Source: Hydra vulgaris (lineage: Eukaryota; Cnidaria; Hydrozoa; Anthoathecata; Hydridae). Taken from it: a DNA stretch of 64,000 nt. The position numbers were made by a program, and so were the translations under genes. The stretch covers positions 58,687,501 to 58,751,500 of the forward strand of contig NC_088928.1 in assembly GCF_038396675.1 (NCBI RefSeq), read 5' to 3'. Shown one piece after another: positions 643-36,257 of this stretch (the stretch's first letter is position 1; the number at the start of each line of letters is the position of its first letter). Under the pieces are notes generated by a model. That model made no database searches. It was not told the origin of the DNA and saw only the letters and a program-made list of their open reading frames with translations.

Positions 643-708
643 CTTTCTCAGGTGTTTACTGTGGCTCAACAAAGCATGTGTTATATTTGAAAAATACGAA
701 GAAATTGG
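643..708 (-). CDS. TAF6L: TAF6L-like gene, exon 5 (start of C-terminal region)
   Basis: A 66-bp exon, acceptor TTTTTACAG, donor GTAAGTC, phase 0 at entry and exit. It reads PISSYFSNITHALLSHSKHL plus RK. TAF6-family proteins have here a short 'ELxxYY/F..IT.A' helix opening the conserved C-terminal (HEAT-like) domain, and the fit is good. No further exon is visible to the left, so the rest of the gene, including most of the C-terminal domain and the 3' end, lies outside the window. Confidence 0.68.
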
Positions 709-2320
709 CTGTAAAAATAAATTATAGAAAATTATAAGATTTATTATGGAAATAAATAAATACTAACAATCCATAAATAAATGCACAATTAATCTTTATT
801 GTTACCTAAAAACACATTTTGTTTATTTTTATATTTTTTATTTTATCCTCTTTGTATTGCTTATATTGTTTTTGCATTTGTTGTATTTAGTATTGTTTTT
901 TTTTTCGGAGTCATTTTATGCCAAATGGACTCAAATTTTAATGTTTTAACACAAACCACCACATACTTAAAATAAAACAGACATAAAACTTGGTAAGTCA
1001 ATTTATATTATTGAGAAAAATTTGACTATTTAATTTAACAAAAAATTTCAGCATAAAACCTATTTGCGATTATAAGGAAACTGTTTTGTCGTTTGAACTT
1101 GTAATTTTTCAAAAAAATAAAAACTTCAATTGCAAAAACATGTTTCAATCATACTTTGAAATATTTTAAAAAGAAAATTTTTTTTAATCATAAACAACTC
1201 TTTTTTTGTATTTGCATTTTATGTTTGTATAAGTAAACAAGTAATCAAGAAGTAAATAAATAAGAATACAAACAAGGTCTAACATGCAAATGAATGAGTG
1301 GAAAAAGTCACTTTTGTATATAAAGTTCTGATGTTAAAATTGATGAAACTTTTAATTTTACATTTTATCCATAATGGTAAACCTAAAAAGCCTAAAAACT
1401 CATTCGCAGGTCTAAAATGTTGATTTTTATGGGTCAATATACAAAATTAACAACTTAAGTAGTTGAGTTTTTTATTTCTATATATAGCAGAATAAATTTT
1501 AAAATATTAAATACAGTTATTATTAAGTCCTTAAAATATTAAATACAGTTATTATAATTAAAAAGCTCCAGCTAAAACTCAAAATTTTTTGCTTTTAATT
1601 TTAACCACCTAAAACCTAGCATTATTATTGTTAACTGTATGTGTGTATCAAAGAAACATAGTTTATAAATGTAGAACAATTTATGATCTAAACACTAGAC
1701 AATAAATAAAAAACTAATAATTACCTGTGCCACAACAGAATTTATGAATATTGTTAATATTACAAATATATAATATAAACCTAAGCAAGAGCTAAAAATC
1801 ATGGGTGTAAAAGGTAAAAAAATGTTGGTGCCATTATAACCAATTAGAACTAAGTAGTGAATAAATGGTGATCCCCTCCTCTGGAATGCACTGCAATCAC
1901 CAATGACATTTCAGGGAGCCTGAGACCTACACTAGCGCTGCACCTGGAGGCCTTCAGCGAGCGCTTTTTTGGGCATGGCTATCTCTAATTATAGCTTATT
2001 TAGGAGATAAAGCTTAACATATTATATTATCAGTTAATGTGAGTTTTTATTCAAAAAAAAATGTTTGTTTACAATGATTATGAATTTAACTTCTTTATTA
2101 TTTATCAGACGTTAGCCACAACACAATATTATAGTCTGGGCACATTATAAAACGTATGGGCACATTATTTAAAGTATAACAAATAGCTATCATATAATTT
2201 TAAATTTATTTTTGTTGTTGTTGAAAGGCACTTGTTTTGAATCAAAACATTTTTATGTATTGATCAAAAAAAAAGTTTCATATCCATTCACTGATGCTCT
2301 CTCAGCTGTTGTGTTTCTAT
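709..2320. other. Intron 4 of TAF6L, AT-rich, no gene seen
   Basis: About 1.6 kb of AT-rich intron with no supported coding sequence. Two features stand out: a direct repeat TCCTTAAAATATTAAATACAG at about 1490-1550, and a short GC-rich block at 1870-1975 described separately. Confidence 0.6.
1866..1980. other. GC-rich block of unknown origin
   Basis: About 110 bp at well over 50% GC inside DNA that is mostly A and T, containing TTTCAGGGAGCCTGAGACC and CTGGAGGCCTTCAGCGAGCG. One frame reads GDPLLWNALQSPMTFQGA, faintly like the 'LWNALP' C-terminus of CR1/jockey LINEs, but it is too short and broken to call. Confidence 0.35.
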
Positions 2321-3227
2321 TTGCAGTTCATTATGTAATGTACATAGAGTACAATCATAACGTTTTTGCAACATTGGAGTTCATTCATGGGTAAAATAAT
2401 TATTTCCACACAATTTCTGATTAATGCTAATTAGTCCATCACTGTAAGATACATTATTACAAGTATAATATAACATATAATCAAAATTACGAATATAAAC
2501 AAGTAACATTACAAATATAAAACCAATTGTCCAGCAGCAGAGTTTCCAGAATGTTTCCATAATTTTACAAAATATTCCATTAGGCGTTGAAATAAAGAAG
2601 ATTCTCCATTATTAGAAATAACAGATATTTCTGTATTTAAACAGATATTTCCGTATTTAAACGGATACTTCTATAAACACATGATGGTTTTCTGTACAAT
2701 AAATGGAATATTTCTTGAAACTCTGCTGCTCGACAATTTCCATACACAACCAAAATTTACATTTGCAAAACACTTATTCAAAATACTTTATTAAAATGAC
2801 CTTCTTTAATACTTAAAAAAATTACAGCATTAAGTAAAATAGCATTAACAAGTAATTACAATAAAAAAGGCAAAAAAAACTGAGAAAAATTAAAATATTG
2901 CGATAAACAAAATTTCTATTCAAACAGAATTTGAATTATGACTATTCAATTCCTGAATTAGAGTAAAAACTTGTGGGCAAATAACTGGTCCTGGTTTTTT
3001 TGCATTTTTTATTTTCACATTTTCAGGATTAAATAGGTTTTATATTTGTAATGTTGCTTGTTTTTTGTAATTTTGTTCATATTTTTTACTAGCAATGATG
3101 TATTTTACAGTGATGGACTAAATAGCATTTATCGGAAATTGTGCTGAAATTATTTTACGTTTGGATGAACTCCAATGATGCAAAAAGGTTATGATCATAC
3201 TCCATGTTCATTACATAATGAACTGAA
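2321..3227. mobile_element. Foldback element with about 200-bp inverted arms
   Basis: Bases 2321-2523 reappear inverted at about 3031-3227, for example GTCCATCACTGTAAGATACA against TGTATTTTACAGTGATGGAC, and ATTATGTAATGTACAT against ATGTTCATTACATAAT. The arms are around 80% identical by eye, so the copy is old. No protein is encoded. The middle carries a second, smaller inverted repeat (separate entry). It lies in intron 4 of the TAF6L-like gene and could form a stem in the pre-mRNA. Confidence 0.8.
2525..2739. mobile_element. Small MITE nested in the foldback element
   Basis: Ends are inverted repeats of about 36 bp: AATTGTCCAGCAGCAGAGTT at 2525 and its complement AACTCTGCTGCTCGACAATT ending at 2739. 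The interior (about 2626-2670) holds three direct copies of an (A)CAGATATTTCYGTATTTAA unit. It is 215 bp and non-coding, and sits within the loop of the larger palindrome. Confidence 0.7.
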
Positions 3228-3643
3228 ATTTTAACGGTATAGAGTTTTAAATGTTAAACCAAAGATTTAAACTTGCACAATTTAAGGCTGTGTTTTCTTT
3301 TGTGTCTCTCCAGGACCAAGATTATTAACCAGTGGTTTTTCACCTATAAAATGAGAGGATGTGATGAAAAACTTTTAAGCTTTTAAGCCATAATGTAATG
3401 GTTATAAAATATAACATAATGGTCGAATCTTGTTAGATAATATGACAATTACTGTTTATTATACTATTGTTTTAGTTACTAAATTTTAAACTAGTTAAAA
3501 TGTTTTTAACTACTGTTATAACTGCAGTTAGAACCTTGTCATTAGTGAAGATATGACTATTTCACTATTGTTCTTACTGCATGTTGGGAATATTTATTTG
3601 TTTTTCAATGAAGAGTAAAACATTTTTTACTTTTCATTGAAAA

Positions 3644-5626
3644 CAGGGTTGATAAAAATCACGTTTTTTTTTATTTGAATCAGATTTTTTTGATTTAAAT
3701 TACATTTTAAAAATATAAACTTTTAATCACTTCGTTTTTAAAAATATAATGAAATCATAACTAAATTAATTTAAAACATTGAAAAATCTTTTTTAATGTT
3801 GATTATTTACAAATTTTCAAAGATTCAATCAATTAAATTCATTGATTCAAATGCTATTTGATTAAATAGTTTGAATAGGAAAACCTTTTTGCCTGCTTTT
3901 TCAATTCCGAATCTATTTCTAATATTTGAATGGACAAGACCAAATAATGAAAATATTCTTTCAACTCCTGCAGATGAAGCAACAGCAGTAAGTAACTGTT
4001 CAACAACTTTTAGTAATTCCTGATTCACATGATCGTTATGAGATTTCCACCAACACATGGCTTAATAGTTTGAACAATGTTATCACGGAACATAAACTTT
4101 TGAAATGGTGCTGCTTCTGCTTTAAAGTTAACCAAAAGTGGAAAAAAATCTGGATTCTTTGAAGCTGCAAAGTCCATTCCAATCTCTATTTCTTTATCAG
4201 TTAATTCTTTACCACTGTATTTAGGATTAACAATATTAGCCAAGAAATGAGCTGGGGTTATTGTCTGTTGTATTCTTTTAAATAAACTCTTCTTAGCATC
4301 TTGGCTAAGCTTAGGACTTAATTTCTGAATCTGAAGATTTTTCCATATCACTACACTGTCACCAATAGTACTACTATCCTGCTGCATCAGGTCTAATGCA
4401 ACAGCAATTGGTTTAAGCATTTGTAACAGTTCTTCTGCACTTCGCTTTACACCAAGGTTATTTACAATATTTGTAATATTCTTTTTAATTATTGTTCTGT
4501 TTTCTTCACATACTATTAACAGAATCGGCTAGTGTTTTAGATAGGATAGAAGACAATCAGCCAATATGTTCCATCTGACATCTTGGGGCATTATAAGTTG
4601 CAGCCCCTCTTTGCTTTGTATGTAGCAGCAGTAAAATGGTTGTTTCTAAAATATTTAACAACTTGAACAATCTTGATGTTTGGAAATTAGTAGCATAAAT
4701 CATTCTTGCTATCTGCTCATCAATAGCTTCATTTTCAGATTTAGTGGTTTTAGTAAGGTGTGAATCCAATTTAGTTGTCACTGTCTTGCCACTGTTTGAT
4801 CTTGTCACTGCCTGATTATTTGAACACAAAAAACTTGTTTTATCTACAGCAGATTGACTAGATTCAATTTTCTTAATAGAACATTGACTAGTTTGTGGTT
4901 CTTCAGGTGTCTGGTTGATATTTTCTAAGGTGTCTTGATAAATAATAATTTCATCATCTTGAACATCTATCAGAAAATTACATTTACCAGCACTTTTGTG
5001 GCTTCTCATTTGAGCAACCAAACCATGCATTTGAAAACCACAGCTTTTGCATTTAGCTTTATTACCCTTTTTTCCAAAGTTTGCAGGTATTTCTTTAAAC
5101 CATGTCCAAACTGCATCTCTTTTTATACCGGCAACAGACATTTCTATTTCTAGTTATATTATTTTTATTTTCAACTAAAAAATAACTAGCAATTATAATT
5201 AACTGTAATAATTTAAATTAACTGTATTTAAAAAAATTTGAATATACTTTTATATAAAAGGAATATATTTATATTTATTATGTAAATAGTAACAAAAACA
5301 GAAATTAATGTAATTAGTTAATAAGTTAAAACAAGAAAAAAAAATTTACTTATATGGATAAAAATCTTTCAATAAATTTAAAAATTTAATGATTTATATA
5401 ACTACTATATATTTTATAATGCATTATCTGACTATTATAACTAATACTAGTTTATGCAGTAGTTGTATTTAGCTAGTGCAATTTACTTTAATTTGATTAA
5501 TCAATAAATAATAATTAAAAATAATTAAAATCAAAAAACTCAATTTAAATCATGACTTTTATTCCTCTGATTTAAATCAAGATTTAAATCGATTTAAATC
5601 AATTGATTTAAATCAAAGCAACCCTG
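3644..5626 (-). mobile_element. hAT transposon, BED-finger type, decayed
   Basis: The ends are CAGGGTTG (3644-3651) and CAACCCTG (5619-5626), a typical hAT terminus. The flanking 8-mers ATTGAAAA and GTTACAAA match at only five positions, so the target duplication is eroded. Just inside both ends are reiterated GATTTAAATC motifs, at least five on the right (5560-5615), likely subterminal transposase-binding repeats (inference). The transposase remnant runs on the minus strand between them. Confidence 0.82.
3825..5141 (-). pseudogene. hAT transposase with BED zinc finger, internally deleted
   Basis: The N-terminus (5141 down) has a BED finger: WTWF...CKSCGFQM, then H and C. It then jumps from YATNFQTSRLFKLL to the downstream block PQDVRWNILADCLLSYLKH, so most of the catalytic RNase-H core is missing; that is a large internal deletion by comparison with full-length hAT transposases. 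A frame change and a Trp-to-stop (TAG) follow near 4530-4560. Reading resumes with LLQMLKPIAVALDLMQQ and ends in the hAT dimerisation domain: WWKSH, ASSAGVERIFS, NIRNRFG. A second frame change lies near 4040. It cannot make active transposase. Confidence 0.85.
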
Positions 5627-5634
5627 GTTACAAA

Positions 5635-7215
5635 TAGTGATACTTGAGGCAAATGCTTATGTTATCATGGGTGAAAAATATTATCAATTGATACTAATAA
5701 ACTTTTATGGTAGGAACATATCAATTTTTGACATCAATTTACTCAAACCTACTCACATATCAGTTGGAACCTCATCAAACCTACACAAAATAGTGAGCCA
5801 TTACCATTTGGTATTTCATGTGAGAAAAAATTAATTGTAAATTAGACTTAAAATATAATTCGTTATCAGGAGGAAATTTTGGACATAATGGATATAATGA
5901 AAATGCATTAAAACAAAGTAAAAGTATTTGCTTATTGACAATAAAAGAAAGCATCTTTATATAAAATCTTTCTGCAGCAAAGAGATAAACTTATTGAGAG
6001 TAAAAAAAAGCATCTTTATATAAAATAAACCTTTCTCTAACTGTGTTAAAAGAATATTTAAATTAATTAGTGACATAAGTAAACACTGATAATAAATGAC
6101 AATAAATAAACACCCAATTTCAAAGACCTACTAATTAATTTCTTATGCCAAAGCATTTTTTGTTACTAAAGCAACAGAAGTTTTCAGCCTACATGGCATC
6201 AGAAAAACAACAACCATAAAAATTCAAATGTAGATGGATATAAACAGTGACCGTTTATTAACTTTTTGCTAATGAAAAAATTTATCCTAACAGAAATATA
6301 AAATCATTAATGCATCTTTTAGTAATTTAAAATCCTTTTAAAACTATTTACAAAACATAGTTGTGAGAATTTCATGATAAAAATTTTGGTAATGAATTTG
6401 GAAACAAAAAAACCACAATAAAACTAGAACAAAAACATACACATTTCTTTATTTATTTAAAGAATGAATAAAGTTTTTAAATATTTCATTTTATTCTCTT
6501 TCAACAATTTGCTTTTGACAATAATTTTATGAATGTACTTTATTAATGCTTTGCGAATAACTTTGCCTTAGCCATAAAAACAAGAAAAAATTAGTCTGGT
6601 AAATTTCTAAAATTTCTTTCATTTTCATTTATAATCTGAACATATATTATAACTAATTATTCACCAATATAGATATTGTGGTTTTTACAAAAATTGCATA
6701 ACATAAAACAAGGATGAATTATTGCTTGAATTTGTTTTAATTTTAAATCATTTTTTTTTTTAGTAAAAAAACTTTCCATTATGCTTCAAGATGACCAAAT
6801 ACACATTTTATAGTGTTGTAGTTTTCAACAAACTGATAAAAATAACTTTTTGATTTTTCTTGGGAATTATAAAGGATTTCAAATTAGATAGCATGAAAGT
6901 TTTTATTTTATTCTTGGTAATAATTTGAAAAGTTCCTGGAAGATTCGAACATCTCAAATAAGCATTAATTAAAGAATTTGAGAAGATTTTAGCATTATAC
7001 TACCAAAACACATATTCAAGCTTTAACTTATATACAAAATTACCCCTCCACTACATCTTGTTAACTGAATATAATTCATAGAAAAAAATAATGAATAAAA
7101 ACCATAAGAGCTTTATTGGAATGTTTTAAACCTTTGGTTGAATTTCAAAGAATAACATCAGTGAACTTGATAAGTTTGATAACTTTGAATTAGAGTGTAA
7201 AATTTTAAGAAGAGT
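5635..7215. other. Intronic DNA without recognisable gene
   Basis: About 1.6 kb, AT-rich. A 65-codon frame at 5637-5834 has no recognisable domain. A local duplication repeats AAAGCATCTTTATATAAAAT near 5950 and 6010. Confidence 0.5.
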
Positions 7216-7745
7216 ATGGCCATGTCATACGCAATAACTCTTGCTTGTTTACTTTATGAATTCAAACTTGCTGTAATATATGAGCAGTTTTTTGGGGAAG
7301 GTACTATAGCTGATAAGATTCAATCCATTACTGCTGAAATCTACTCAGCACAGCTAAACAGAGTTTCAGTTGTGATAAGTCAAAAACAGCCTGTTTTACC
7401 AAACAGAAAAGATGTTGTCTTCTATCAGAACAATGCAAAACCACACATAGCAAGCACCACACAGGAAACTCTTTAACAACTACTTTGGAAAGTTCTACCT
7501 CAACCTCCATACTCACCAGACCTAGGTGACTACTACCTGTTTTTGGTCTTGGATAACAGAATCAGCAATTTTAAAATAGAGAGGTTTTGGAAAACAAGGT
7601 AATACACTTCTTTGAATTTCAAATAAAAAGATTTCTAAATATGATCTTGTGTCTAGATATGAAAAAAGAAAACTGCTGAAAGATGCCTATGATGAAATTG
7701 AAAATGAAGACAAAAAAAGCTGAAGATGAAATTTTCTGGGAAAGA
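7216..7745 (+). pseudogene. mariner transposase, C-terminal remnant
   Basis: The reading frame contains AEIYSAQLNRVSVVISQKQ, then PNRKDVVFYQNNAKPHIAS, which is the mariner block around the second catalytic Asp (usually HDNARPH; here QNNAKPH, so that Asp is Asn). After a stop near 7474 the frame continues LLWKVLPQPPYSPDLGDYY, the mariner YSPDL(A)PSDYHLF block, with Ala-Pro-Ser partly lost. The N-terminal half is missing. No terminal repeats found. Confidence 0.8.
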
Positions 7746-7847
7746 TAATCCTATTTTTTAAAACCAAATTAAACCCTTTTTTTTTTGCCGCTATTTCTTA
7801 ACATTAAAATTTTTTTGGTTGCCTGGTAATATGTTGTAGCAACTCTT

Positions 7848-8880
7848 TTATCTATTTGTTAATGCTCTTACATTTGGTGATTTCAAATCTGGAGAAATAT
7901 AAAGTTCAAGATGTGAAACAAGTTTAAAAACAGGAAGATTTAACAAGAAAGTATAAAAGGACAATTTTTGGACAAATTCAAAAAAAAAAAGAAGACAATT
8001 TTCTTCAAAATTTCGAAATAATTTGCAAAACAAAGTCTCATCTTGTTGTCTCACCTTGTTATTAAGACAAACCAGCACAAACGTTGGTAATGATTGCACT
8101 CCAAATCATATTAGTTGGATATTGCTTAAAAGGAAAGTGCATCACATAAAGGATTAAAGTGCAAGTTTGGTGGTTCAAACTGACTGTGTGTGCTGCAAAC
8201 TGCTTTACTTGCACTTTGTCTGAAAACATGACACGTTGAGACATTTTAACAATATTTATATTTATTGCTAAAAAAATTTTTAATCAGATGCTTTTTTTTC
8301 CTTGCTTAAAACAATTTTGAAGTTTTGATAAATTTTTTTAACAATGGGGGAATTATAACTTTAAATATTTAATAGCATAACTTCATTTTAATAATTACGA
8401 TCAAAAATATTCGCTTCTAAAATTTAATATTAAATAATAGTTTAATTAATGGCATTCCATTCTTTTTTGATTGAATTTTTTAATTTTATATGCTCGTCCT
8501 TAAAAATAGTAAAATTCAGTGAACATCAATACGAATCCACATCAGACAATAACAATTTGCAACCATTTAATTCAACCTTTGATTTGTCAATTGTCAAGAT
8601 TAGAGCCCTTGGCAAAGCGCCTTCAAACTGTGCGAGTACTAACATTCACACTAGGAGTTGAGTGAGAATTTGCGAGTTTAAAATGACCTTAACAGCTAAA
8701 CAGTGCATTATCTTCAGTTTTTTGAATAGTAATCTTTGGTCTTTCACAGGATTTTTCTGGATAGATGTCATCCGTTGACTTGATGCACTGAATGATATTA
8801 TGAACAATTGTCTTAATCATCTTTAAGTGCAGCAATTATTATTAGTTGTACTTGGTATTATTAGCAAGTTAGCAACATGA
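7848..8880 (-). pseudogene. Tc1-like transposase, heavily decayed
   Basis: Fragments in the right order on the minus strand. 8820-8700 reads TIVHNIIQCIKSTDDIYPEK then SCERPKITIQKTEDNAL, the Tc1 helix-turn-helix and 'GRPK.T...D..L' linker. About 8640 reads VNVSTRTV. 8240-8062 reads RVMFSDKVQVKQFAAHTV then NMIWSAIITNVCAGLS, matching the VMFSDE...IWGAI...G..L core. About 7890-7850 reads SPDLKSPNVRAL, a worn SPDLNPIEN motif. The catalytic E/D residues are altered and several frames are needed. It sits tail-to-tail with the mariner remnant. Confidence 0.7.
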
Positions 8881-8889
8881 TTGACTTCA

Positions 8890-9957
8890 TAGTTACTTAC
8901 TGAGTTATTAAATTTCTAAAGAATAAGAGTTGTATCGTATTAAATTTCTAAAGAATAAGATACATAATTTTTTTGGTTTTTTATTATTATAAAATTTAGT
9001 TAATCAATTCCAAAATTTAATTAACCATTTAACTAAGTCATTATTAATAAAATGTAACATTACAAGAATTTTATGTCAATGTGCTACAAAAGAAAGACCA
9101 GCATTGTATATGATTAAAAAAATAAATAAAACAATGAACAAAAAACATGTTCTTGCCATTGAATATTTTTTTTTCTCCAGAAAAATTAGAAACTTTAAAT
9201 AACAATGTCTCATGACCTACATAAGGTTTTATGCTGAAATAGACTTAATGTTGTCATTATAAAACATCATTTCAACAACATGTGTATACAATCTTTACAC
9301 CATCATAAACTATTTATAAATCCTTGAATCTGTATATTACTCTTGCAAGACTACTGATATTTTAACAGGGGGTCACTCTCAAATCTCACAGGGTGGCCAT
9401 TTAGTTTCAATCTTATAGGATAGCATGATTTGAAGTTCGATGAATATTTGTATATTATTTATTGTAATGTTAATGAACTTAGTTTGTATTACTCCTTATG
9501 CCTCTTAAATATTGTTAACTTTAGGAAAACAGTTCATATAATACAATGACAACTGTTTGATTTAAAAAAAACATTTGAAATATATGGTAGCATGCATACA
9601 AGAGCCAAATCTGAAACTGCAACTGTTTTTTACTTTGTATACAATAATTTTACAAACATCTACTGATGATACTAATTTATAATTTTTTAACCATTAAATT
9701 AGTAATTTGCTTATAGAGTACAGTGTATGGCAACAATCAACTGGTGCAAAAACTAAAAAACAAAGTTTTACTTGAAATGAAAGTAGCTTTTAATCTTTGA
9801 ATTATTCAAAAAAAATTTAAAAAACATTCTAAAACAAATTTCTTAGTATTTCAAAAAGGGTTAATGGGTTTTCTAGCTTAAACATGAACCCTATTGATTA
9901 TAATATAAAAAATATTTATTATTAAAAGCATTTAAAATAGCATAACCGCGTTCTTAC
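8890..9957. other. Intronic DNA without recognisable gene
   Basis: About 1 kb, AT-rich. A short direct duplication of TATTAAATTTCTAAAGAATAAG lies at about 8905-8960. Nothing else supported. Confidence 0.5.
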
Positions 9958-9995
9958 CTCATTAAGATCAATATTGACATCTTCTTTTGTTTTAT
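9958..9995 (-). CDS. TAF6L: TAF6L-like gene, exon 4 (38-bp micro-exon)
   Basis: A 38-bp exon between TTTAATTTCAG and GTAAGAAC. With the one base carried from exon 3 it reads DKTKEDVNIDLNE and ends in phase 0. The sequence is a charged linker, which is where TAF6-family proteins carry variable linkers between the histone fold and the C-terminal helical domain. The evidence is splice sites and phase only. A cDNA read would be needed to exclude an alternative exon in the same 17-kb stretch. Confidence 0.62.
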
Positions 9996-10180
9996 CTGAA
10001 ATTAAACTTTATATTAACAACTCTACATAATTATTCTAGTCAATAATAATACATAATTAGTCAAGTTTTCTTAACTATTATTAGCTCTTATTATAAGAAA
10101 AATTAGAAATTAGAAAAATCCAGAAACAAAAAAAACCTGCACTGTAAATCTTTCCTTCTAATGCTAACCAATTTCCTAAA

Positions 10181-10346
<166 letters not shown>

Positions 10347-10399: not shown

Positions 10400-10620
10400 A
10401 AAAATACGGTAAGTGGGACAGAGTGCTCACTTCATAGGCAAGAAGCTCTGAATTCCAACCCCACCATGTCCCTGGTAGTACCACGCTCAACTTACTTTTT
10501 TGCACAGTGACTCCGCTCGCCAAGGTTCGTGTTTCGAAGTTAATGAGATGAAAGGGGGTTGTAACCACAATAAATTAGGTTCCTCAACTGTAGTGGCCCT
10601 CTCGGTCTTGGGAGGTGAAA
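10400..10620 (+). mobile_element. tRNA-derived SINE, copy 1
   Basis: Shares its layout with the copy at 14806: a tRNA-like head (GTGGGACAGAGTGCTCACTT), then CCTGGTAGTACCACGCTCAA, AAGGTTCGTGTTTCGAAGTT, and a tail ACTGTAGTGGCCCTCTCGGT + CTTGGGAGGTG. The A/T-rich end follows. The Pol III box sequences are eroded. Confidence 0.72.
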
Positions 10621-10720
10621 AACATAAAGAAAAGAGAAATAGAATCAAAAGGAAAAAAAAAACAAATAAAAAGAATTAAAATGTTTTACAAAATATTAGA
10701 AACTAAGAAAATATCACAGT

Positions 10721-10905
10721 CCTTGTTATGAAATTTCGTTGCATAACTGAAAAGCATAATGCAACTAAATGTAACTTTACTCAATATACATATTTATAAT
10801 ATAATACAATATTAAATTTAAATTATAACAGTTGCGTATTTTAAAGTACCCCATACTAATTAAATTTAATCTAAAACCACATTAAAAATCATTTAAAGTA
10901 TAAAT
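10721..10905 (+). repeat. Dispersed repeat, copy A
   Basis: About 185 bp matching 18848-19030 in the same orientation: both open CCTTGTTATGAAATTT, share TGTAACTTTACTCAATAT and contain a TATTTTRAAGTACC block. Non-coding; family unknown. Confidence 0.7.
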
Positions 10906-11290: not shown

Positions 11291-12349
11291 TTATTTGCTA
11301 AACTTTTCATCAGTTTACATATATTCTTGAAATACTTATTTAATCAAGCAAGATATATTTAATAAAACTTATTCTATAAAATGTGTATTGCTCATTTTAT
11401 TTTATTTTTAAAGTTAAATAATTATTGTTAAAAATATTGTAATCAAGAACAAAGCAAAACAAAAACATGTTATTTAATTATGACAAAGAAAGCAATCCGT
11501 TTTCAAGTAAAGGAAGTTTGTCGCAGGAAAAAAAGTAAAGGTCCTTAAGTTTTAATTTGGGTGGGGCTCAAATTTTTGTCAGGTCATGTTATCCTGCTAC
11601 TGGTAACATGTAACCCAGTACAATCTGATTCATATCCTGGCGCCTTGTAGGATATGCCTTTTTAGGCAAAGGCTAGGAGATGCCAACTCCGACTTAAAAC
11701 ACCCCCTGCCTTGGGGCTCTTGGTTGAGTAAAGGCAAGAGATGGTGTCTAGATAAAAATACTCATCTTGGGCAGATGTTAAATTGTATCCGGCTACTGTC
11801 TTGTAGAAGGCCTCCTAGGCAAAGACTTCAGGGGTAATCAGATTCTATCTGTTGACCAGCTTCGCGCCGCTTCTTCATCTATTAGGCTGGCGCAGATGTA
11901 TTTTTAAAACATTGTTTCCAGTTTAGGATGTTAAATGCTGGATCTTCTTGACTCAATGCATGGGTTTTTCCTTGTGTCTCTGGTTTTATGACTAGACAAC
12001 TCATTTTATTATCTCCTAATGAGGGTACAGCTCTAAAACTCAGTTTTATGGTTCTGAGGCCAACTGGTAGTCAGGTTTCCCGAACTCTGTGGTAGCTCAC
12101 AGAGAGGCTGATTCCATCAACAGCTGAAAAATATCAAAGTATTAATAGTGCCATGTGGCGCATGGATAGTGTCCCTGTTTGTACTTTTGGTGTGCACTGC
12201 GGAGGCCACATTTGGAGCCCTTTGTTACGGCTTAGGGTTTATTAATAGTAATGAGGCAATTGCTTGGGCTATAAAACAGTGTACTGAGTACTATCTATGT
12301 TTTGAGTCAAGTTCTTCAATCTAATTTTAAAATGAATAAAGTACCAAAA

Positions 12350-14800: not shown

Positions 14801-14832
14801 TAACTGTAGCGGTAGTGGTAAGAGCGCTCGCT
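14601..14832 (+). repeat. 115-bp tandem duplication spanning the LINE-SINE junction
   Basis: TTTTCCTGATTCATATAA...CTTTCAGTAACTGTAG...GTGGTAAGAGCG occurs twice in a row with a period of about 115 bp. Each unit holds the last part of the LINE coding/3' region plus the first 25-30 bases of the SINE head. The duplication therefore arose after the SINE inserted. Confidence 0.8.
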
Positions 14833-15100
14833 TTGTAAGCGAGAGGTTTGGAGTTCGACTGCCACCACGTCTCTGGAAGTACCGCGCTCAACTTAGTTTC
14901 TCCGCGCAGCGGCCTTGCTTGGCAAGGTTCATGTTTCGGAGTTAAAGAGTTGAGAGAGGGTTGCACCACGAATAACAACTAAAAAAAAATAAAAAAAAAG
15001 CACAAAAAAAAAAAAAAAGAGCAGCCTCTTCGACTGTAGTGGCCCCCCTCGGGCCTTGGGGAGGTGGATAATCTAAAAAAAAAAAAAAAAAAAAAAAAAA
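14806..15100 (+). mobile_element. tRNA-derived SINE, copy 2, inserted in the LINE 3' end
   Basis: The head is tRNA-like: GTAGTGGTAAGAGCGCTCGC with a perfect anticodon-arm stem (CTCGC, loop TTTGTAA, GCGAG; anticodon TGT) and a B-box-like GGAGTTCGACTGCC. The body has CTGGAAGTACCGCGCTCAAC and TTGGCAAGGTTCATGTTTCG. The tail is CGACTGTAGTGGCCCCCCTC then poly(A) 15075-15100. Removing it restores CAGTAACT/TCCAACTTT exactly as in LINE copy 2, so the insertion point is certain. No clear target duplication. Confidence 0.85.
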
Positions 15101-15269
15101 TTCCAACTTTAATTAGTAGCTGCTTGCAGCCTTGTTGGAAAGCGAAGATATTTAAAAAAAAAAAAAATAGCCCCTGGCTGTAAATATACATATTTCCTAT
15201 ATATGTATGTATGTATATAGTTGAAAATTTTAACAACAAATTTCTTTATTATTATTATCAAAAAAAAAA

Positions 15270-17932: not shown

Positions 17933-18089
17933 CTTTGACAATGGTTTCACTACCAACCATAGGATATACAGAATCTAGAGCAATATCCCGCAAATTTTTA
18001 TCCTTTTCATCAATATAACAAACTCTGCCATCTTTAAATGGAATAGCTTTATAAACAAGAGCTTCAGCATCTCCATGTCCATAGATTAT
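17933..18089 (-). CDS. TAF6L: TAF6L-like gene, exon 3 (post-histone-fold segment)
   Basis: A 157-bp exon (52 codons plus one base) with acceptor TTTAAAG and donor GTATTT. It enters in phase 0 and leaves in phase 1. The residues begin IIYGHGDAEALVYKAIPF and continue to DIALDSVYPMVGSETIVK. TAF6/TAF6L proteins have at this point a YG...-turn, a PF/PM segment, a D/E-rich strand and a block ending before the HEAT-repeat region. The phase-1 end matches the phase of exon 4 7.9 kb away, which supports the chain. Confidence 0.8.
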
Positions 18090-18256: not shown

Positions 18257-18343
18257 TTCAGTGTTCATTTCTTTTAAAGCATTGTTAAAATCTTCAGTTG
18301 TCAAACATGTACGTTTTGCGTGCTTCATAAACATAACAGCATT
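18257..18343 (-). CDS. TAF6L: TAF6L-like gene, exon 2 (second half of histone fold)
   Basis: An 87-bp exon, phase 0 at both ends, bounded by an AG acceptor after a T-rich tract (TTTTTTTTAG) and a GTAAGT donor. It encodes 29 residues starting NAVMFMKHAKRTC and ending KEMNTE. Placed directly after exon 1 it completes the histone fold with the conserved pattern FMKHAKR..LTTEDFNNAL. It is too short to find by ORF length; phase, splice sites and family match support it. Only 167 bp separate it from exon 3, while 17.8 kb of transposon-rich intron separates it from exon 1. Confidence 0.82.
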
Positions 18344-24200: not shown

Positions 24201-25641
24201 TGCAACTCTATCTTTTTTTGAAACAAGTTTTAGAGGTGAGCATCCAAAACTTGCAATACTTGAATTAAGATCTTCTTTTAATGCATGATTGTCAACATAA
24301 ATTTCTTTTTCTTGGAGTTCATTTTCTTTTGTATTATGTTTGCAATTCAGAACTTTTCTGCAACTAGTGCAAATTTTTTGACCAGGTATTAAACCAAAAT
24401 CTTTGGCATATGAAAGACTGATTACTCTAAGAGAATCTAAAAAATAACGGAAATAATTATTAAATATTTTTTTATTTATTTATTTAGTGTTATTAAGGTA
24501 TTTTTATTAAATTAAGATATTAAATATTGAAACTTACTTTTCACATTTTTTGCGTTCTTGTTCAACGGATTACAACAATACCTGCGATGTTCATTCTCAT
24601 ACCTCGACAAGTAAACTTTCTCGTGATAGCTACAAATAAAATCTATGGGATTTATTTTGCTTCTCAAAGAAATAAGCTCTTGGTTTAGTTTAGACAGTTC
24701 TTGGTAGCGTTTACTTTTATTAGATAGATAGCACTGTTCATTTAATGCTTTACTAATACAGCAAGTAGAAAGCTCAGGCATATTACTTATTATTAATTAG
24801 TTCTAAAATACAACAATTTATTTGGTTTTATTAGTACTTTTTAGATTGACATACTAGTAATATAGAATTAAATGAAACAATAACTAAACTTTTAAAAAGT
24901 AATAATTTTTTATGGAAAATTTACCTGACTTTTAGAGACTACCTTTTGGGGGTTATAAATAAGCGCCCATTAATTTTTTTGGTTTTTATTAATTAACAGT
25001 CTTTAATTGATGCGTATAAAAAATTTTATAAAAAAAAAAAAGTGCCATCTTAGGTAACAGATGCTTTGCATCACAGATCAATTTTACGAAAATCTCGATC
25101 TGACTCATTTTGGAGACCTATAACTTTTGAATGCAGCTCTTTAATCAACTGATTTTTTTAAAAATGTTTATCCACCACATGCAGATCAGTAGGCAATTTG
25201 ATTTGTATTAACTTTGTAACTAGTTTTTAAGATTAAGGTCTTTAAAATCACAAAAAAACTTATTCTTAAAACAAAAAAATCAACTTTAGCCCGCCATTAT
25301 GGAAAAAGTTAAGATGCCAGAAATAATATTTTTTTCTTTTTTCAAAGTATCCACAGCACACTTGCTATCTTATAATAATTGAAGTATAAAACTAACTTGT
25401 TCAAAAGTTATTGGCTGTTAAAAATGATGAAAAAACCCTTTTTTCTTGTAGAGTGAAATTTTATGCAAAATAGCCCACTACTTAAATAGCGTTTTCTCAA
25501 GAACCATATTAGATATTGATCTAAAATTTTCAAAACATGCTTTTAACATATATATGTACAAAATCAAAAAATTTCAATAAAATCTGAGATGGTCCATGAG
25601 GGACCTCATTAAAATTTGCACCACTTGGCATGGAATGACCC
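21232..25641 (-). mobile_element. Sola-like DNA transposon with about 700-bp terminal inverted repeats
   Basis: The left end reads GGGTCATTCCATGCCAAGTG and the right end is its inverse, CACTTGGCATGGAATGACCC. The arms (21232 to about 21957, and about 24910-25641) are nearly identical for some 720 bp, a rare length. Four-base ATTA repeats flank the element exactly (21228-21231 and 25642-25645). A spliced transposase lies between the arms on the minus strand. The 4-bp duplication plus the DDD-type protein fit the Sola superfamily; I assign it as Sola-like by those criteria, not by a search. It lies in intron 1 of the TAF6L-like gene in the gene's own orientation. Confidence 0.8.
22205..24781 (-). 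pseudogene. Sola-like transposase, two exons, two frameshifts
   Basis: Exon 1 (24781-24538) begins MPELSTCCIS, has a CxxxHE/ERRYCCNPL metal-binding block and ends at GTAAGT. A 101-bp intron follows and exon 2 begins at 24436 in phase with NSLRVISLSYAKDFGLIPGQ and CTSCRK. The long core carries three candidate catalytic blocks: VLLDFAENYSF, YFSDGAASQYKNYKN and SHGKSPCDGDGGTVKR. One-base frame changes lie near 23095 (an extra A after FVYK) and 22765 (after LNDPI). The last part reads TPSKMYSWCVQHNKGISFFF and YVACVYDAQWYLGNI. Otherwise there are no stops over some 750 codons, so inactivation looks recent. Confidence 0.8.
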
Positions 25642-25645
25642 ATTA

Positions 25646-26209
25646 TTATTAATTACTATTATTATTTTAATTACTATTATTATTATAAATTTTAATTATT
25701 ACAATTGTTTCCGCTCAATTTACTATCATACTCTTTTATCAACTCGTAATTGGTTTTATAATCTTTTCGGAAATTAGGAGAAAATGTATGTTATAATGAT
25801 GTGATATGTAAGTTAAATTTTGAGGTAATCTAATTTTTAATTTCTAAGAGACTTAGAACAAATAGATTTTTTAAGATTCTGGTACATTTGCTTCTTATAT
25901 AATATAAGTAAATATATTCTTCTTATATAATATAGATGTGTATAAAAAAAAAGCATTATCTGAATATAAAAAAAAAGAAATCTTTTTTACTATTTTTATG
26001 AATAGAACCAATAGAAAGGTATTAAATGCAGTATTATTTTATGTATCAGGTTTATTGCTGTAAAATATATTTAAATGTGTTAAATATAGCGCAAGTATAA
26101 AAACGAAAATAAAATATGAAGAAATCATATAGTATTATTTTCATCATACAAAAGGAATATATATAGTTATAAATAATTTATAAATACTCATTTTAAATAA
26201 ATTAGCCCA
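25646..26209. other. Intron 1, AT-rich, no gene seen
   Basis: About 560 bp; only ATT/TTA simple sequence just after the Sola-like element and a TCTTATATAATATA direct repeat near 25895-25930. Confidence 0.5.
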
Positions 26210-26608
26210 TATTCATCAACAAATTTCAAGTTTCATGCAATAATCTCTTAGTGTTCAGTTTTTATGACCCTGCAATGTTTACAGCCCCCTCAAATTGAGG
26301 GGGTTAAAACTTTATATGGTCATAGTTTTTGAAAAATAAGACCTTATTGCATGAAATTTGAAATGTGTTGATGAATATAAATGTAGATAAAAATAATAAA
26401 GAAAATATTTTATAAACTCATTGCTCCCACGTTAAGGGCCGGGTGGGCCCAAAAATTAGAGCTTTTTTGTTCCCAAACTCCAATCACCCCAATTCTTTGC
26501 AAAACATTATTTTTTGATATAAGCATAAACATACAAAAGTTTGGAGTTTGCACAATTCCTGTAAGTGTCTAAACTCAAACATCTAAAAATCCAGTGTACA
26601 CCACTGTT
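26210..26608 (+). mobile_element. Foldback element, truncated copy (family of 48908-49452)
   Basis: Matches the right two thirds of the complete copy: ATGACCCTGCAATGTTTACA, CCCCTCAAATTGAGGGGGTT, GTTAAGGGCCGGGTGGGCCC, and the end ATCCAGTGTACACCACTG. The left inverted arm is missing, so the element starts abruptly near 26210. Non-coding. Confidence 0.82.
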
Positions 26609-27639: not shown

Positions 27640-29494
27640 TTAAAATATTTTCCTAGCTTTAGTTTTCACAGAAGTATCAATGACTTTGTTTAAGTCTAGG
27701 CTTGATGCAGTTTTGTTTTCAATTGCTATTAGCAATAAATGTCGGAGTCGAGTATGACCCATCTTATTTCTTAAATAATTTTTTATTATTTTTAATTTGC
27801 TAAATGACCTTTCAGCTGATGCAGAAGTGACAGGAATTGTAAAGAATAATAACATTGCTGTAAATACTTCTGTTGGGTTGCATTCTAGCACTCCATATTT
27901 GCTCATTATTTCCTTAAATAATTGGTGAACAATCCATGCTTGAGTTAGTTGAGGTAAAACTAGATGGTAAATATTAATAAATTGAAGTGAAAAACTAGGG
28001 CCTATTAAATCTGAATATGTTTTTATGAATTCGCCACACTTTTGTAATAAAGTTGCTTCATCAATATGTAATAAAAACATTGGCGTTGGAAAATTGAATA
28101 TATGACAGGCTGCACTAATACCAATAAAATGTGTATCTAATTGAGATATTGCTGAGTCTAGTACATTAGTGAAAATCTCAATTTTAAACATTTTTTCACA
28201 GTTTGGAAATTGGTGATCAGCAGCTAATTCATCAAAATATTTTTTAACTTTTCTTTGTCTTTTTTCTTGAAAATGGGTATCAATAACATATTTTCTTGCA
28301 GTTTCACTGGCTTTGCACTTGATTAATTCGAAATCATTTCTATAAATTTGCAACTTTGCTTTGGTCTCTGCTTAAACTTTACTTGCCTCGCCCAAATTGA
28401 TGTCGCATTTTTGTAAAGTTTTGGATGCATAATTGATGTCATTCAATACACTGTGCATGAATTTGCAAAGCAACAGAAACTTGAAATTTAGCATTTTTGT
28501 TTTAATACTCTCTGCTTCACTACGCTCATCTTTATTAGGACTCTTAAGAACTATTTCTGATAAGGCTTTGATAATATCAAAATAATGAAGTTTTAGTGTA
28601 GATATCGTATTGACACTACTGGACCATCTAGTCGGATTTAGTTTTTTTATAAGAGTGGATTAGAGTGGTGTCCGATTCGCCAGTGAATTTTGACAGTATA
28701 TCCCAACGTTTGATGCTGTTACTGAAAAAGTTATACAAATCTTGCAACGTTGCGAAAAAAATCTGTATTTCCACACAACCTCTAACGGCATCATTTATCA
28801 CTAAATTTAAATTATGAGTGGCACAATGTATGTACTCTGCGTTAGGCTGGATATCCTTAATATGTTTTTGTACACCATTATACAAACCACTCATCACACT
28901 GGCTCTATCATAGCCTTGCCCCACACATTTTTTTAAATCAATATTTTTGTAGATAAATAATGTTGTCACTTGGTTGACTAAATCTACAGCGCCATGTTTG
29001 ATAGCTGCATAAAAGCCTAGAAACATTTCTTTTACTTCTATATCAATTGGCTGTCCATTTTCGGATCTGGTTATTACTGCATACTTTACAACAATGCTTA
29101 GCTAATCTACCTTCGATATGTCCTGTGTCGTATCCATTATGATGGCAAAAAACAGTGACGCTCTAATTTCTTATTAAAAAAGAGAAACACATTGATACGC
29201 TACAAGAGTCATTGGGGAATGGCACACATATCACTATCCGTCAAATTGACAACACTGCCAACCTACAGAAATAATTTAGGGGAATTCCCTAGGCATAACT
29301 TTTGAAGTTCTCTCAACTGAGTTGTCGAGATTAAAGTGGGGTTGCAAATTGCAACCTGTCATATTTATTTTGAAAATGGGAGAAATTTCCAAAAGTTCAG
29401 TTCGACCGAGATTTCTAGTAAGAATTTGAAGGCCCCCTGAGCTTGAGGGCCCCGGGGCACTGCCCAGCATTGCCCCTAGGTTGCTACGCTGCTG
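27640..29494 (-). pseudogene. hAT transposase of the ZMYM1/DUF4371 type, 5'-truncated
   Basis: Minus-strand fragments in order. FFAIIMDTTQDISKVD then a stop and LSIVVKYAVI (29160-29060). EMFLGFYAAIKHGAVDLVNQ and CVGQGYDRASVMSGLYNGVQ, then EYIHCATHNLNLVINDAV (29026-28700). A frame change near 28640, then LNPTRWSSSVNTISTLKL. The C-terminus has FFTIPVTSASAERSFSKLKI and NYLRNKMGHTRLRHL (27640-28353), the hAT dimerisation block. Stops occur near 29100 and 28370. The N-terminal TTF-finger is missing. A hAT-like end, CAGCGTAGCAACCTAGGGGC read inward, lies at 29494; no partner at the other side was secured. Confidence 0.8.
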
Positions 29495-31089: not shown

Positions 31090-31518
31090 TTTTTTTTTTT
31101 AAACATCTTCGCTTCAAACAAGGCTGCAAGCAGCCATTAATTAAAGTTGGAAGTTACTGTAAGAGAAAAGATGAAGATTGTAGAGCAAGATAACGATTGA
31201 CTGACGATTTAAAAGATTGCAAATTATATGAATCAGGAAAACAAGATGAAGGAAGCGAATTCCAAAGAACTGATGTGCCCATTATAGTATTTGTAGAAAA
31301 GAGAAAGAGAAGCAACATTACGACGATGTGATAATGGTTGAAGGTTGGCTGCAAGAGCAGGTCCAACTATGTTTACAATGCATTTTTTGCACCTTGTCTA
31401 AAAGAGAAAGGGCATCATTAGAAGATCCGCCCCAGATATGGCAACAGTATTCCATACAAGGCCGGATTTGAGATTTATAGAGATAGAGAATAGAATCCAG
31501 AGTAAGAAAGTGGCGAGC

Positions 31519-32835
31519 TCAATAAAGAGATGCAACCTTAGTAGATGCTAATTTTGCAACCGATTTGATATATGGTTTCCAAGAAAGATTGGAAGTAAGA
31601 GTTAATCCTAGAAGATGAAGAGTAGGTGACTCATCGAGTACATCACCGTTCATAAATATAGGAAGATCTAAATTATTGCGATAACGATTGGCTGAAAAAA
31701 ATTGAGTTTTATCTGAATTAAAGTTCACCAGCCACTGTGAGCCCCATGCTGTAGCAGAAGTGAGATCCTTTTCAAGCTCAAATGCCCCCTCCAAGCAATC
31801 AGAGGGTGTTGGTTTCTTATCATGACAAGAATAAATGGTAGTATCATCAGCAAACAATGCCACCTTAGATGTGAGAATATCTGGAAGATCGTTAATGTAA
31901 ATTAAAAAGAGTATAGGGCCAAGGATAGAACCTTGAGGAACCCCTGAAGTTACAGAATAAGAAGAAGAGTGTTGTTCATCGAGGACAACTTTTATGCTAC
32001 GATTGGAAAGGAAGGACTCAATGATCTTAAAGATGTTGCCAGATACACCATAAGAAGAAAGCTTATGGAGAAGACCAGCATGCCAAACTTTATCAAACGC
32101 TTTTGAAATGTCAAGAGCGACGGCCTTAACCTCTCCACCTTCATCTAATGCACGATAAAACCTGTCAGTTATTACTGTTAGCAAATCAGCTGAAGAACAA
32201 GAAGATCGAAATCCATATTGATGGTCAGAAAGTAAGTTATTAGATTCAAGATGAGAAATTAAGTGTTTGTTAATTAAAGATTCAAAAACCTTGCTTATGA
32301 TAGGAAGAAGACTTATGGGACGGTAGTTAGACGAATCAGATCGCTCCCCAGAATTTTTGAAGATAGGGATAACAGATGCGGCTTTCCAGCAGGCTGGAAA
32401 ACAAGACTCTGATAAGCACTTGTTGAATAGTTTTGAGAGTATAGACGACAGCTCCGGAGAACACTTCTGCAAGACAATAACAGGTATGTTGTCTGAGCCA
32501 CAAGCTGTAGAAGAGTCTAGGCAGGATATCACTTTAGATACAGATGCTGGAGTGATATGAATGTAAAGCAATGGATCAACCTGTTTGTTGGCAATATCAG
32601 GTAGAACGCAATTAGTGGAATCAAGAGATGATATTGATGAAAAGTTTTTAGCAAACAGTTCGGCTTTGTCTTTAGGTGAGGTGGCAAAGTCTGAACCATA
32701 CAAGAGAGGTGGAATTATAGATTTGCCCTTATTATTGATACTATTAAAGATTCTCCAGAAGTCACGAGAGCCTAATTTTTGAGATAAAATGCGAGATTTC
32801 ATGACCTGAGAATAGCGGGCTTTGGCGTTAGACAA
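31519..32835 (-). pseudogene. LINE copy 2: reverse transcriptase part
   Basis: Continues in frame from the endonuclease after the TAA. RT blocks: TACGSDNIPVIVLQKCSPEL, NYRPISLLPIISKVFESLIN, QYGFRSSCSSADLLTV, VALDISKAFDKVWHAGLL, SGVPQGSILGPILFLIYIND and LFADDTTIY (catalytic FADD), then WLVNFNSDKTQFF and LHLLGLTLTSNLSWKPYI. The domain is complete. The frame ends because CGA (Arg, as in copy 1) is TGA here at about 31519-31521. The remaining C-terminus (MEYCCHIWGGSSNDAL, then TSVLWNSLPSSCFPDSYN in another frame) follows with a deletion. Confidence 0.9.
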
Positions 32836-32841
32836 AACCTT

Positions 32842-33999
32842 TTAACAATGGTTTCTAGCAGTAATAAACAGGCGCCTGTTTTCTGGAGAATTGTTTTGCT
32901 GATAAATATGGAAGTAACGGTTTCGATTGGCAATCGCAGCAGCACAGCGTGAGGAAAACCATGGAGGAGAGTGAGGCTTGACCTGGAATCGTCGAGAGGG
33001 AATAAAAGATTCCATGCCAGCCTGACTCCACGAAGTTATGTAAGAAGCACATTTGTCGACAGGAAGTTGAAAGATTTCTACCCAAGGGCCATCACGAAGA
33101 AAATCACGGAAAGAATCCCAGTCAGCTTTACTGTAGTTGTAAGAGGTTCGATAATAGGGGTATTCAGGTGATGAAGAAGAATGAGATATTAGTTTTAAAG
33201 AGATCAAACTGTGATCAGAAGCACCTAATGGTGAATGTGGAGAAACTGAGCACTGACTAGGATCAGAAACAAGACATAAGTCGAGTAGAGAAGGTAAATG
33301 ATTAGGGTTGTCAGGAAAGCGAGTTGGAAAGTTGACTATTTGAGTTAGGGATTGAGAAAGGCAAAAGTTGTGGGCTTTAAAGCCTGCAGAGTCACTGACA
33401 CTAGAGCCAAGCCATTCAGAGTGGTGAGCATTAAAGTCACTGACAACAACTATATTAGCTGATGGATAAAGAGAGAGGGCTTGGTCAATATGATCAGAAA
33501 TAACATCAAAAAGTGTGCAGTCTTGAGATGAAGGAGACCGATATAGAACAAAGAGAAAGGCAATAGAGTGAAGTGGTGCTAAACAAAAGCACATGAAAGA
33601 ATAGTCTGTGGATTCAAACCTAGTTTCACGACAAACAGGTGAATTCTTATGAATGTAAATGCCCAGGACAAGCATGTGACTATTGGAGTCTTTACGAATC
33701 AGAGGAAGATAACCATCAACACTAAGATCACAAGATGAGACAGCCAAACTCAAATTAGTCTCACAAAGAGCAAGTAGGTCTGGTGAACTTTGCAAGAGAT
33801 AAGACTCAACAGAAGAAAAGTTACTTCGAAGACCACGAATATTAGTGAATGATAGGTTTAGAGAACTTGGTGATGATGATGGTTTTTTGTGTTTTATAGT
33901 TTTTGGTACTTTATTCATTTTTAAATTAGTTTGAAGAACTTGACTCAAAGCATAGATAGTACTCAGAACACCGTTTAATAGCCCAAGCAATTGCCTCAT
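32842..33999 (-). pseudogene. LINE copy 2: apurinic-type endonuclease part
   Basis: 385 codons ending at TAA 32844-32842. A likely original start is the Met at residue 28 (MNKVPKTIKHKK), matching where copy 1 has ATG. Endonuclease motifs are all present: FTNIRGLRSN (about 51-60), LALCETNL (76-83), YRSPSSQD (153-160), VVVSDFNAHHSEW (184-196), PSLLDLCLV (236-244), LGASDHSLISL (258-268). These are the metal and phosphate-binding residues of the LINE AP endonuclease, so the domain looks catalytically complete. The stop is in the same frame as the RT part and is shared with copy 1. Confidence 0.88.
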
Positions 34000-34690
34000 T
34001 ACTACTAATAAACCCTAAGCCGTAACAAAGGGCTCCAAATGTGGCCTCCGCAATGCACACCAAAAGTACAAACAGGGACACCATCCATGCGCAACATGGC
34101 ACTGTTAATACTTTGATATTTTTCAGCTGTTGATGGAATCAGCCTCTCTGAGAGCTACCACAGAGTTCGGGAAACCTGACTACCAGCCGGCCTCAGAACC
34201 ATAAAACTGAGTTTTAGAGCTGTACCCTCATAAGGAGATAATAGAATGAGTTGCCTAGTCATAAAAACAGTGACACAAGCAAACCCATGCATTGAGTCAA
34301 GAAGATCCAGCATTCAACATCCTAAACTGGAAACAATGTATTAAAAATACATCTGCGCCAGCCTAATAGATGAAGAAGCGGTGCGAGGCTGGTCAACAGA
34401 TAGAATCTGTTTACCCCTTAAGTCTTTGCCTAGGAGGCCTTCTACAAGACAGTAGCTGGGTGCATTTAACATCTGTCCAAGATGAGTATTTTTATCGAGA
34501 CACCATCTCTAACCTTTACTCAACCAAGAGCCCCAAGGCAGGGGGTGTTTTAAGTCGGAGTTGGCATCTCCTAGCCTTTGCCTAAAAAGGCATATCCTAC
34601 AAGGCGCCAGGATATGAATCAGATTGTACTGGGTTACATGTTACCAGTAGCAGGATAACCTGATCTGACAAGATCAATCTGACAAGACCT

Positions 34691-36110
34691 AAAGTCTTTC
34701 AGCACCATTATTATATTATTAAGTTTAAAAATCTCACTTTTATTTTCAAAAAATGCTTATACAAAAGTGTTTACAAAATTAGGTTATTATAAAAAATAGT
34801 TTGATAAAACAATTGCAAGGGAGAAACATACTAAACCCATTTTATAACAAGTTATTATTTTTTATTAAATAATTAAAAATATAAAATATTATAGTGTTAC
34901 CCAAAGAAAATTCATATCAAGGGTTGCAATATGTCTAACAAAAATTATTGAATTGGGTTTTAAATCGTGTGGCATTTAAGCAAATGGTTCTAGAGATGTT
35001 AGATTAAAAAAATAAAAGATTGGTTATCTCATAGTAAAAAGTTAGGTTATTTGGTACTGTTGAACAAACCATATTTTCATTATAAAACCTTGCAGAGCAT
35101 GGATAATAGTATGATCCTAATCTGAAATAACTCTTAATATGGTAAGATTTTGCCACTCAGTAGTCAGTTATTAGCATTTTTGAGCATAACTAAAATCCTT
35201 TCAGTTTTAAGAGCTGTTGTTACCCACAATATTGTTTAGTAGTGTTGGAAACTTATCACAGAAGTTTCAATGACGTTCAATAGGGCTTTTATAGTGTCAT
35301 TAATAAAGAAAAATATAACCTATCTTTTTCGCATGATCTTGTTTGTAGTGTACAAATCTTCGATAAACAAGACAGAAATACTTGTGTAGTACACTGTTAT
35401 GTAGTACCCTGAGAAAGATCTTCAATTGTGAAAGGTTTAATCTTTTGTTAACTTTACTCAATATAATTGGAAAAAAATTTTTTGACTCTTCTTTTTTTCT
35501 ACTATCGCAAAAAAAAAAAAAAACTAAAGATCTTGAGGAAGCAATAAAGACAATAATGAGAAAAAAATGCAACAAAACAAAATAATAGAATAGGCATACA
35601 AACATCAAAATAAGTTCTAGATATTGGGGTCACTTTGACCTGTCAAACACATTTCATACTGCAACTTATCAACAACTATTTTGCTAGATAAAATGACAAA
35701 TAATTGGTTGGCCTCATCGAACAGGAACTTGCACAAGCCAGAGAGGCACCAATGTTAGACACTTATTTCAAGCCTTGCTATGATACAAAGAATTTTTTAA
35801 TATTATATATGATATAAAAATATTTAAAATATAAACTTCAAAAATCCTGAAATAAAATAATATTCCTAAAGTATTAGATACAGGGTATGAGAACCAGATT
35901 TTTTAAAATATTAAACTTAACAACAATCTCTCATCAATATATAACATAAAATAACAGAGCATGCTCTTACTTTTTGTCATAGCAAAAAAAACCTTTTTTA
36001 TTGTAAATTTTTTATTGACAATTTTTTTATTGACACCTTTTTTATTGAATTATTTTTATTGACACCTTTTTTATTGACAATTTGTAGAGAGTGATATCAA
36101 AAATTCTTAC
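34691..36110. other. 5' part of TAF6L intron 1, AT-rich, no gene seen
   Basis: About 1.4 kb next to exon 1. Five near-tandem TTTTTATTGACA units lie at 35995-36080, directly downstream of the exon 1 donor. No coding evidence. Confidence 0.5.
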
Positions 36111-36257
36111 ATGAACAGTCTCTCTAATTCTATAAGTTGTATCTTCAGCAAGGTTCCCACAAATCTCATCATTAAGCTTGGAAATGCCAATAGACTCTAC
36201 CCAAACATCTAAACACTGTTTTGGAATAACAGTGTATCGTGAACTTGTTCCACTCAT
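36111..36257 (-). CDS. TAF6L: TAF6L-like gene, exon 1 (start codon, first half of histone fold)
   Basis: First coding exon of a five-exon minus-strand gene. ATG is at 36257-36255; 49 codons end at a GTAAGA donor (phase 0). Joined to exon 2 it gives a TAF6-type histone fold at about residues 7-78: start RYTVIPKQCLDVWVESIG, then NLAEDTTYRIRETVH. In the known family this fold pairs with TAF9; TAF6 acts in TFIID and TAF6L in SAGA. The next exon's FMKHAKRTCLTTEDFNNAL is closer to TAF6L than to TAF6, so I call TAF6L, with TAF6 as the alternative. No in-frame upstream ATG is needed. A TTTATTTAG just 5' of the ATG could be an ordinary or spliced-leader acceptor (inference). The following intron is about 17.8 kb. 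Confidence 0.82.

Follow-up and report, generated by a model that had tools for sequence, protein, structure and literature searches.

A probable TAF6L-like gene of Hydra vulgaris with six small exons spread among repeat-rich introns

In a window of 64,000 nucleotides from Hydra vulgaris (the whole stretch analysed here; contig NC_088928.1, positions 58,687,501 to 58,751,500, with all coordinates below counted from its first letter), the minus strand between positions 36257 and 643 carries a phase-consistent and open chain of exons whose predicted product we assign with confidence to the TAF6 family. We consider it probable that this chain is the 5' part of one animal nuclear protein-coding gene that would be transcribed leftward, and that it most likely encodes TAF6L, the SAGA-specific paralogue of TAF6. 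An earlier note on this DNA had proposed a TAF6L-like gene of five exons (36257-36111, 18343-18257, 18089-17933, 9995-9958 and 708-643, minus strand). All five are present, the range of 38-157 bp given there for its second to fifth exons is correct, and when joined across four GT..AG introns they form an open frame of 495 nt; what that list overlooked is a 39-nt exon at 10175-10137. The corrected model therefore comprises six exons with 534 nt, or 178 codons, making 1.5% of the 35,615 bp coding, and five introns of 17767, 167, 7757, 141 and 9249 bp, all of the GT-AG type. No stop or frame break interrupts the six exons, which share one order and one strand. The broader claim of a TAF6-family gene of more than 35 kb with repeat-rich introns finds good support in homology and in the order, strand and frame of the exons.

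Exon 1 (36111-36257, on the minus strand like all the others) extends for 49 codons from an ATG to the donor CAT|GTAAGA and encodes the first part of the histone fold, the remainder of which (NAVMFMKHAKRTCLTTEDFNNALKEMNTE) is found in the 87 nt of exon 2 (18257-18343). Exon 3 (17933-18089; 157 nt, ending in phase 1) contains the TAF6/TAF6L segment past the fold and is followed by the new exon 4 (10137-10175), which provides 13 residues in 39 nt, runs from phase 1 to phase 1, and lies between the acceptor TATTTTAG and the donor CAG|GTTTTT. Exon 5 (9958-9995; 38 nt, phase 1 to phase 0) contributes linker (DKTKEDVNIDLNE), and exon 6 (643-708; 66 nt, PISSYFSNITHALLSHSKHLRK), with the acceptor TTTTTACAG and the donor AAG|GTAAGT at 643, would form the start of the first HEAT-repeat helix. 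Because exon 6 ends at a donor near the edge of the window, the gene presumably continues past the left edge, with its remaining exons outside; visual inspection of the three minus-strand frames of positions 1-642 showed nothing recognisable as a continuation of TAF6L. At the opposite end, a two-codon upstream frame (ATG TTA TGA, 36254-36262, minus strand) overlaps the start codon of exon 1 with its last bases, an arrangement that possibly serves reinitiation, or else the true 5' end may lie elsewhere.

Against the Pfam family of the TAF histone fold (PF02969) the six-exon product scored 74.3 bits (cutoff 21; E 8.9e-21), with residues 9-73 covering positions 2-66 of the 66 in the profile. Exon 1 alone (E 8.6e-9, profile positions 2-41) and exon 2 alone (E 3.7e-7, positions 43-66) were each above the cutoff and nearly adjoin in the profile, meaning that a single histone fold is divided between exons 17.8 kb apart. 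Exon 3 alone was without a match in a Pfam scan with E values up to 1, and in the joined product it carries on the alignments to the TAF6L and TAF6 chains of the PDB. Among these, the top match was the TAF6L chain 7ktr_F (E 2.1e-23, 86.3 bits, residues 6-176), and the TAF6 chain DF of 30ff reached 69.4 bits with an alignment that stops at product residue 139. We take the chains of 7ktr and 30ff to be human, and those of 6hqa and 6t9i to be from yeast.

The distance between exons 1 and 2, with several repeats lying between them, might instead suggest that these are decayed, rearranged or silent remains of a TAF6-family gene whose pieces are not joined in an mRNA, and the visible codons are only 178 in number. 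We regard this as very unlikely in view of six exons in a common order and on a common strand, free of stops and frame breaks, with GT-AG at every junction. The same distance, together with the cut through the histone fold, is also all that would speak for exon 1 and the downstream exons belonging to different transcripts, either spliced together in trans or started from promoters of their own; the fold needs both exons (profile positions 2-41 plus 43-66), and since splicing in cis suffices without extra assumptions, we hold this arrangement to be extremely improbable. For one continuous gene, the sequence itself shows the homology of exons 1-4 and, for all six exons, their order, their phase and their agreement with the splice consensus; exons 1 and 2 would be joined over the 17.8 kb.

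Exon 4 came to light through a gap in the product of the five-exon model, which was without a 'WL.EG' segment that is present in the TAF6 chain of 30ff and in 6hqa. A stretch beginning GAAATTGGTTAGCATTAGAAGG was found upstream of 9995, some 15 bases past the end of a TA-rich microsatellite. For comparison, every open stretch of 18-120 nt in matching phase between an AG and a GT in the intron from exon 3 to 9995 (317 candidates) was scored against three TAF6/TAF6L segments: exon 4 scored 85, the best candidate at another place in its intron 50, and the maximum among 3253 control candidates, drawn from the whole plus strand and from the minus strand outside that intron, was 55. With exons 3 and 4 joined, the 'WL.EG' segment is present after the fold. 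Two alternative donors, giving exons of 33 or 48 nt, would also keep the frame at an equal similarity score, and the 39-nt form is preferred because of its CAG|GT donor.

Including this exon moved the end of the 7ktr_F alignment from residue 131, the end of exon 3, to residue 176, and for this reason the five-exon model, in which the final two exons obtain no homology support from 7ktr_F, was rejected. The bit scores of seven of the nine TAF6-family PDB chains compared rose likewise (7ktr_F from 78.1 to 86.3, 7kts_F from 77.1 to 79.9, both 30ff_DF and 6mzc_I from 57.7 to 69.4, 6hqa_D from 60.6 to 66.7, 6t9i_E from 59.1 to 65.3 and 9ynu_E from 37.1 to 46.6); the remaining two, 6f3t_E and 1taf_B, are short and each lost 0.2 bits. 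The microsatellite occupies positions 10191-10345. Only about 15 bases separate its end from the 3' splice site of exon 4, so that the pyrimidine tract of that site is reduced to TATTTTAG, and the length of the microsatellite might affect splicing of this exon.

Exon 5 brings exons 4 and 6 back into one frame. Exon 6 ranks first by similarity among the 540 candidates in its interval, the only ties being variants of exon 6 itself, and it was the sole candidate in the window to pass a joint threshold on similarity and on splice sites (one among 3382 on the minus strand and none among 2886 on the plus strand), with limits that had been chosen after exon 6 was seen. For the choice of paralogue, bit scores favour TAF6L (86.3 for 7ktr_F versus 69.4 for TAF6 of 30ff), and the 7ktr_F alignment covers most of exon 6. 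Counted on that alignment, the linker from the 'EG' to the 'YF' of exon 6 has 22 residues, versus 23 in 7ktr_F, a count that holds if exons 5 and 6 are correct and intron 5 contains no further exon. In sequence, TAF6 and TAF6L differ most substantially in this linker, which is about 50 residues shorter in TAF6L, according to the portion consulted of a cryo-electron microscopy study (PMC12998509).

A number of results pull in the other direction, and the post hoc choice of thresholds for exon 6 has to be counted with them. Scanned alone against Pfam with E values up to 1, exons 4-6 matched no family. Residues 125-178 alone (54 residues, comprising exons 4-6 and the end of exon 3) retrieved no TAF6-family chain from the PDB at E values up to 10, the matches being six of chance level (E 1.2-2), none of the TAF6 family. 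Because exons 4-6 have by themselves neither a Pfam family nor a TAF6 chain, what supports them is their position downstream of exons 1-3. The similarity score of exon 6, 28, was equalled by 2 of 5728 controls. By a simple splice-site score, exon 5 ranked 27th of 291 phase-compatible candidates, and at 38 nt it is the least certain exon of the model; further linker exons could be hidden in the 9.2-kb intron 5. With 7kts_F, the other TAF6L chain of distinct sequence, the alignment breaks off at residue 139 even with exon 4 included. The product is identical to the TAF6L chain at 58 of 168 positions and to the TAF6 chain at 47 of 130; at 86 positions where these two chains differ it is TAF6L-like at 24 and TAF6-like at 22.

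The gene might instead encode the canonical TAF6 of TFIID, or a TAF6 that never duplicated and works in TFIID and SAGA alike, in which case the short linker would be an artefact, either because intron 5 contains exons left unfound or because exon 5 or 6 is wrong. In favour of this, the product is as similar by identity to the TAF6 chain as to the TAF6L chain, the 22 TAF6-like residues include the W and L of 'NWLALEG', and for one of the two TAF6L chain sequences the alignment stops where that of TAF6 stops. Set against this are the margin in bits for 7ktr_F, its alignment through most of exon 6, and a linker that in the six-exon model is of TAF6L length, and on balance we judge a canonical or undivided TAF6 to be rather unlikely. 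The TAF6L label of the earlier note is favoured by bit scores and linker length, and the discriminating residues are split almost evenly; we assign the product to TAF6L with moderate confidence.

In the six-exon model exons 1 and 2 encode the histone fold, and exons 3 and 4 would encode the post-fold segment that by analogy may give strands to the TAF5L propeller; exon 5 would encode a short linker and exon 6 the start of the HEAT-repeat domain, the rest of which, with a last helix that differs between TAF6L and TAF6, would lie past the left edge of the window. The protein would presumably partner a TAF9-type protein in SAGA. The introns probably were enlarged by ordinary transposon insertion and would be removed by the spliceosome at their GT-AG sites.

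Within the introns we could confirm six kinds of repeat or transposon in a total of eight copies. The earlier count of at least eleven elements from nine or more families was neither reproduced in full nor refuted. Two of the copies are retrotransposons of the type without long terminal repeats (non-LTR). One, at 31090-34671 on the minus strand in intron 1, encodes an endonuclease and a reverse transcriptase (PF14529, E 2.1e-14; PF00078, E 5e-36). The second, at 11576-15164 on the plus strand in intron 3 (PF00078, E 6.2e-23), has its coding region spread across several open reading frames. The two lie in opposite orientation and are 93.7-94.8% identical in two main aligned pieces. Intron 1 also contains a hAT-type transposase remnant (27640-29101, minus strand; PF05699, E 5e-8, and PF14291, E 3e-5, the latter below its cutoff) and a probable DNA transposon of about 4.4 kb (21232-25641, minus strand) with inverted ends of about 725 bp, including a 699-bp arm that is 99% complementary. 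The likeness of these ends suggests that the transposon is young. The tetranucleotide ATTA is found at both of its sides, within a repetitive AT-rich flank. Three of its open reading frames were scanned and none exceeded a Pfam cutoff, the longest having 468 residues (23076-24479, minus strand); a search of viral contigs for relatives of this frame gave one pattern-matching stretch and none that was confirmed.

The other confirmed copies are shorter. At 26167-26606 in intron 1 lies one copy of a short inverted-repeat element, whose other copy, with terminal inverted repeats, is at 48907-49453. A dispersed repeat at 18844-19011 in intron 1 is 78% identical to its partner at 10717-10898 in intron 3, and a short inverted-repeat element with arms of about 200 bp that are 82% alike lies at 2321-3228 in intron 5. 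Outside the count of eight are a possible hAT-like element in intron 5 (3644-5626, minus strand) with matching ends CAGGGTTG/CAACCCTG, in which two open reading frames were without a Pfam match above cutoff, and a stretch at 10407-10573 that resembles 14810-14975 at 75%. The hAT label of the former is presumed from the style of its sequence.

Across the whole window, G+C (guanine plus cytosine) ranges from 21 to 39% in 2-kb steps, and neither ARAGORN nor Rfam, the latter at its gathering threshold, returned a hit. Further upstream than exon 1 of the TAF6L-like gene, and sharing its strand, a stop-to-stop frame of 369 codons (40655-41761, minus strand) gave three RRM matches (PF00076, E 1.1e-22) and has Nucleolar protein 4 as its top PDB match (E 1.7e-11). 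A Tc1-type transposase piece (37327-38011, minus strand; PF01498, E 2.9e-9) is flanked by inverted TA-rich stretches of 125 bp at 36701-36825 and 38366-38490. Further along, a weak P-element-like transposase piece (51801-53299, plus strand; PF12017, E 0.0018, below cutoff) lies between inverted repeats at 50435-50602 and 53752-53908, just behind a stretch that is presumably THAP-like. Finally, at 59174-59604 a 33-bp unit is repeated in tandem about ten times, with a core 97-98% alike and both strands open.

Taken together, the locus is very probably a real and ordinary gene whose first description was incomplete, and the main gain is a corrected exon structure. For annotation the lesson is that exons of 38 and 39 nt, kilobases of repeats from their neighbours and in one case behind a TA-rich microsatellite, are easily missed: exon 4 was overlooked by a careful reading even though protein homology shows it clearly. 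In human SAGA the short TAF6L linker is connected with making room for the SF3B splicing module. If the six-exon model is right, it is conceivable, though we would put it forward only tentatively and with some doubt, that a short-linker TAF6L predates the split between cnidarians and bilaterians and has retained TAF6-style residues such as the W of 'WL.EG'. Were this true, the gene would represent an intermediate for the duplication of TAF6 and TAF6L, and a short linker in a cnidarian would help to date the gain by SAGA of its own form of TAF6. Our literature search returned nothing pairing TAF6L with Hydra or Nematostella, and with cnidaria it returned a match that is unrelated by its title and the start of its abstract; a term search of the main text of the review PMC8194025 found no Hydra, Nematostella or cnidaria.

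Two assemblies of Hydra vulgaris are listed, in the section consulted of PMC7642931, with 25.4% G+C, 57-60% repeats and mean gene lengths of 6.9-12.4 kb, and the same section gives long interspersed nuclear elements (LINEs) of the L2 type as about 7% and CR1 as 8.4% of the brown Hydra genome. The window shares the low G+C and holds hAT, Tc1-like and LINE elements. Unlike the genes summarised there, the TAF6L-like gene exceeds the listed mean length by a factor of about three or more (PMC7642931, same section); at 35 kb with repeat-rich introns it is long, and not surprising in such a repeat-rich genome. With the TAF6 of TFIID (30ff, chain DF) the product has in common the histone fold and the segment that reads 'KAHWLSIEG' in that chain, and it differs in its linker, the one in TAF6 running about 50 residues longer to the HEAT repeats (PMC12998509, in the portion consulted). 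From the TAF6L of SAGA (7ktr_F) the product, visible here for its first 178 codons, differs in an overall identity of about 35% (58 of 168) and in a TAF6-style W where that chain has V in the 'WL.EG' segment. With the same chain it shares the histone fold, the segment that follows, and the length of the linker up to where the first HEAT helix would begin.

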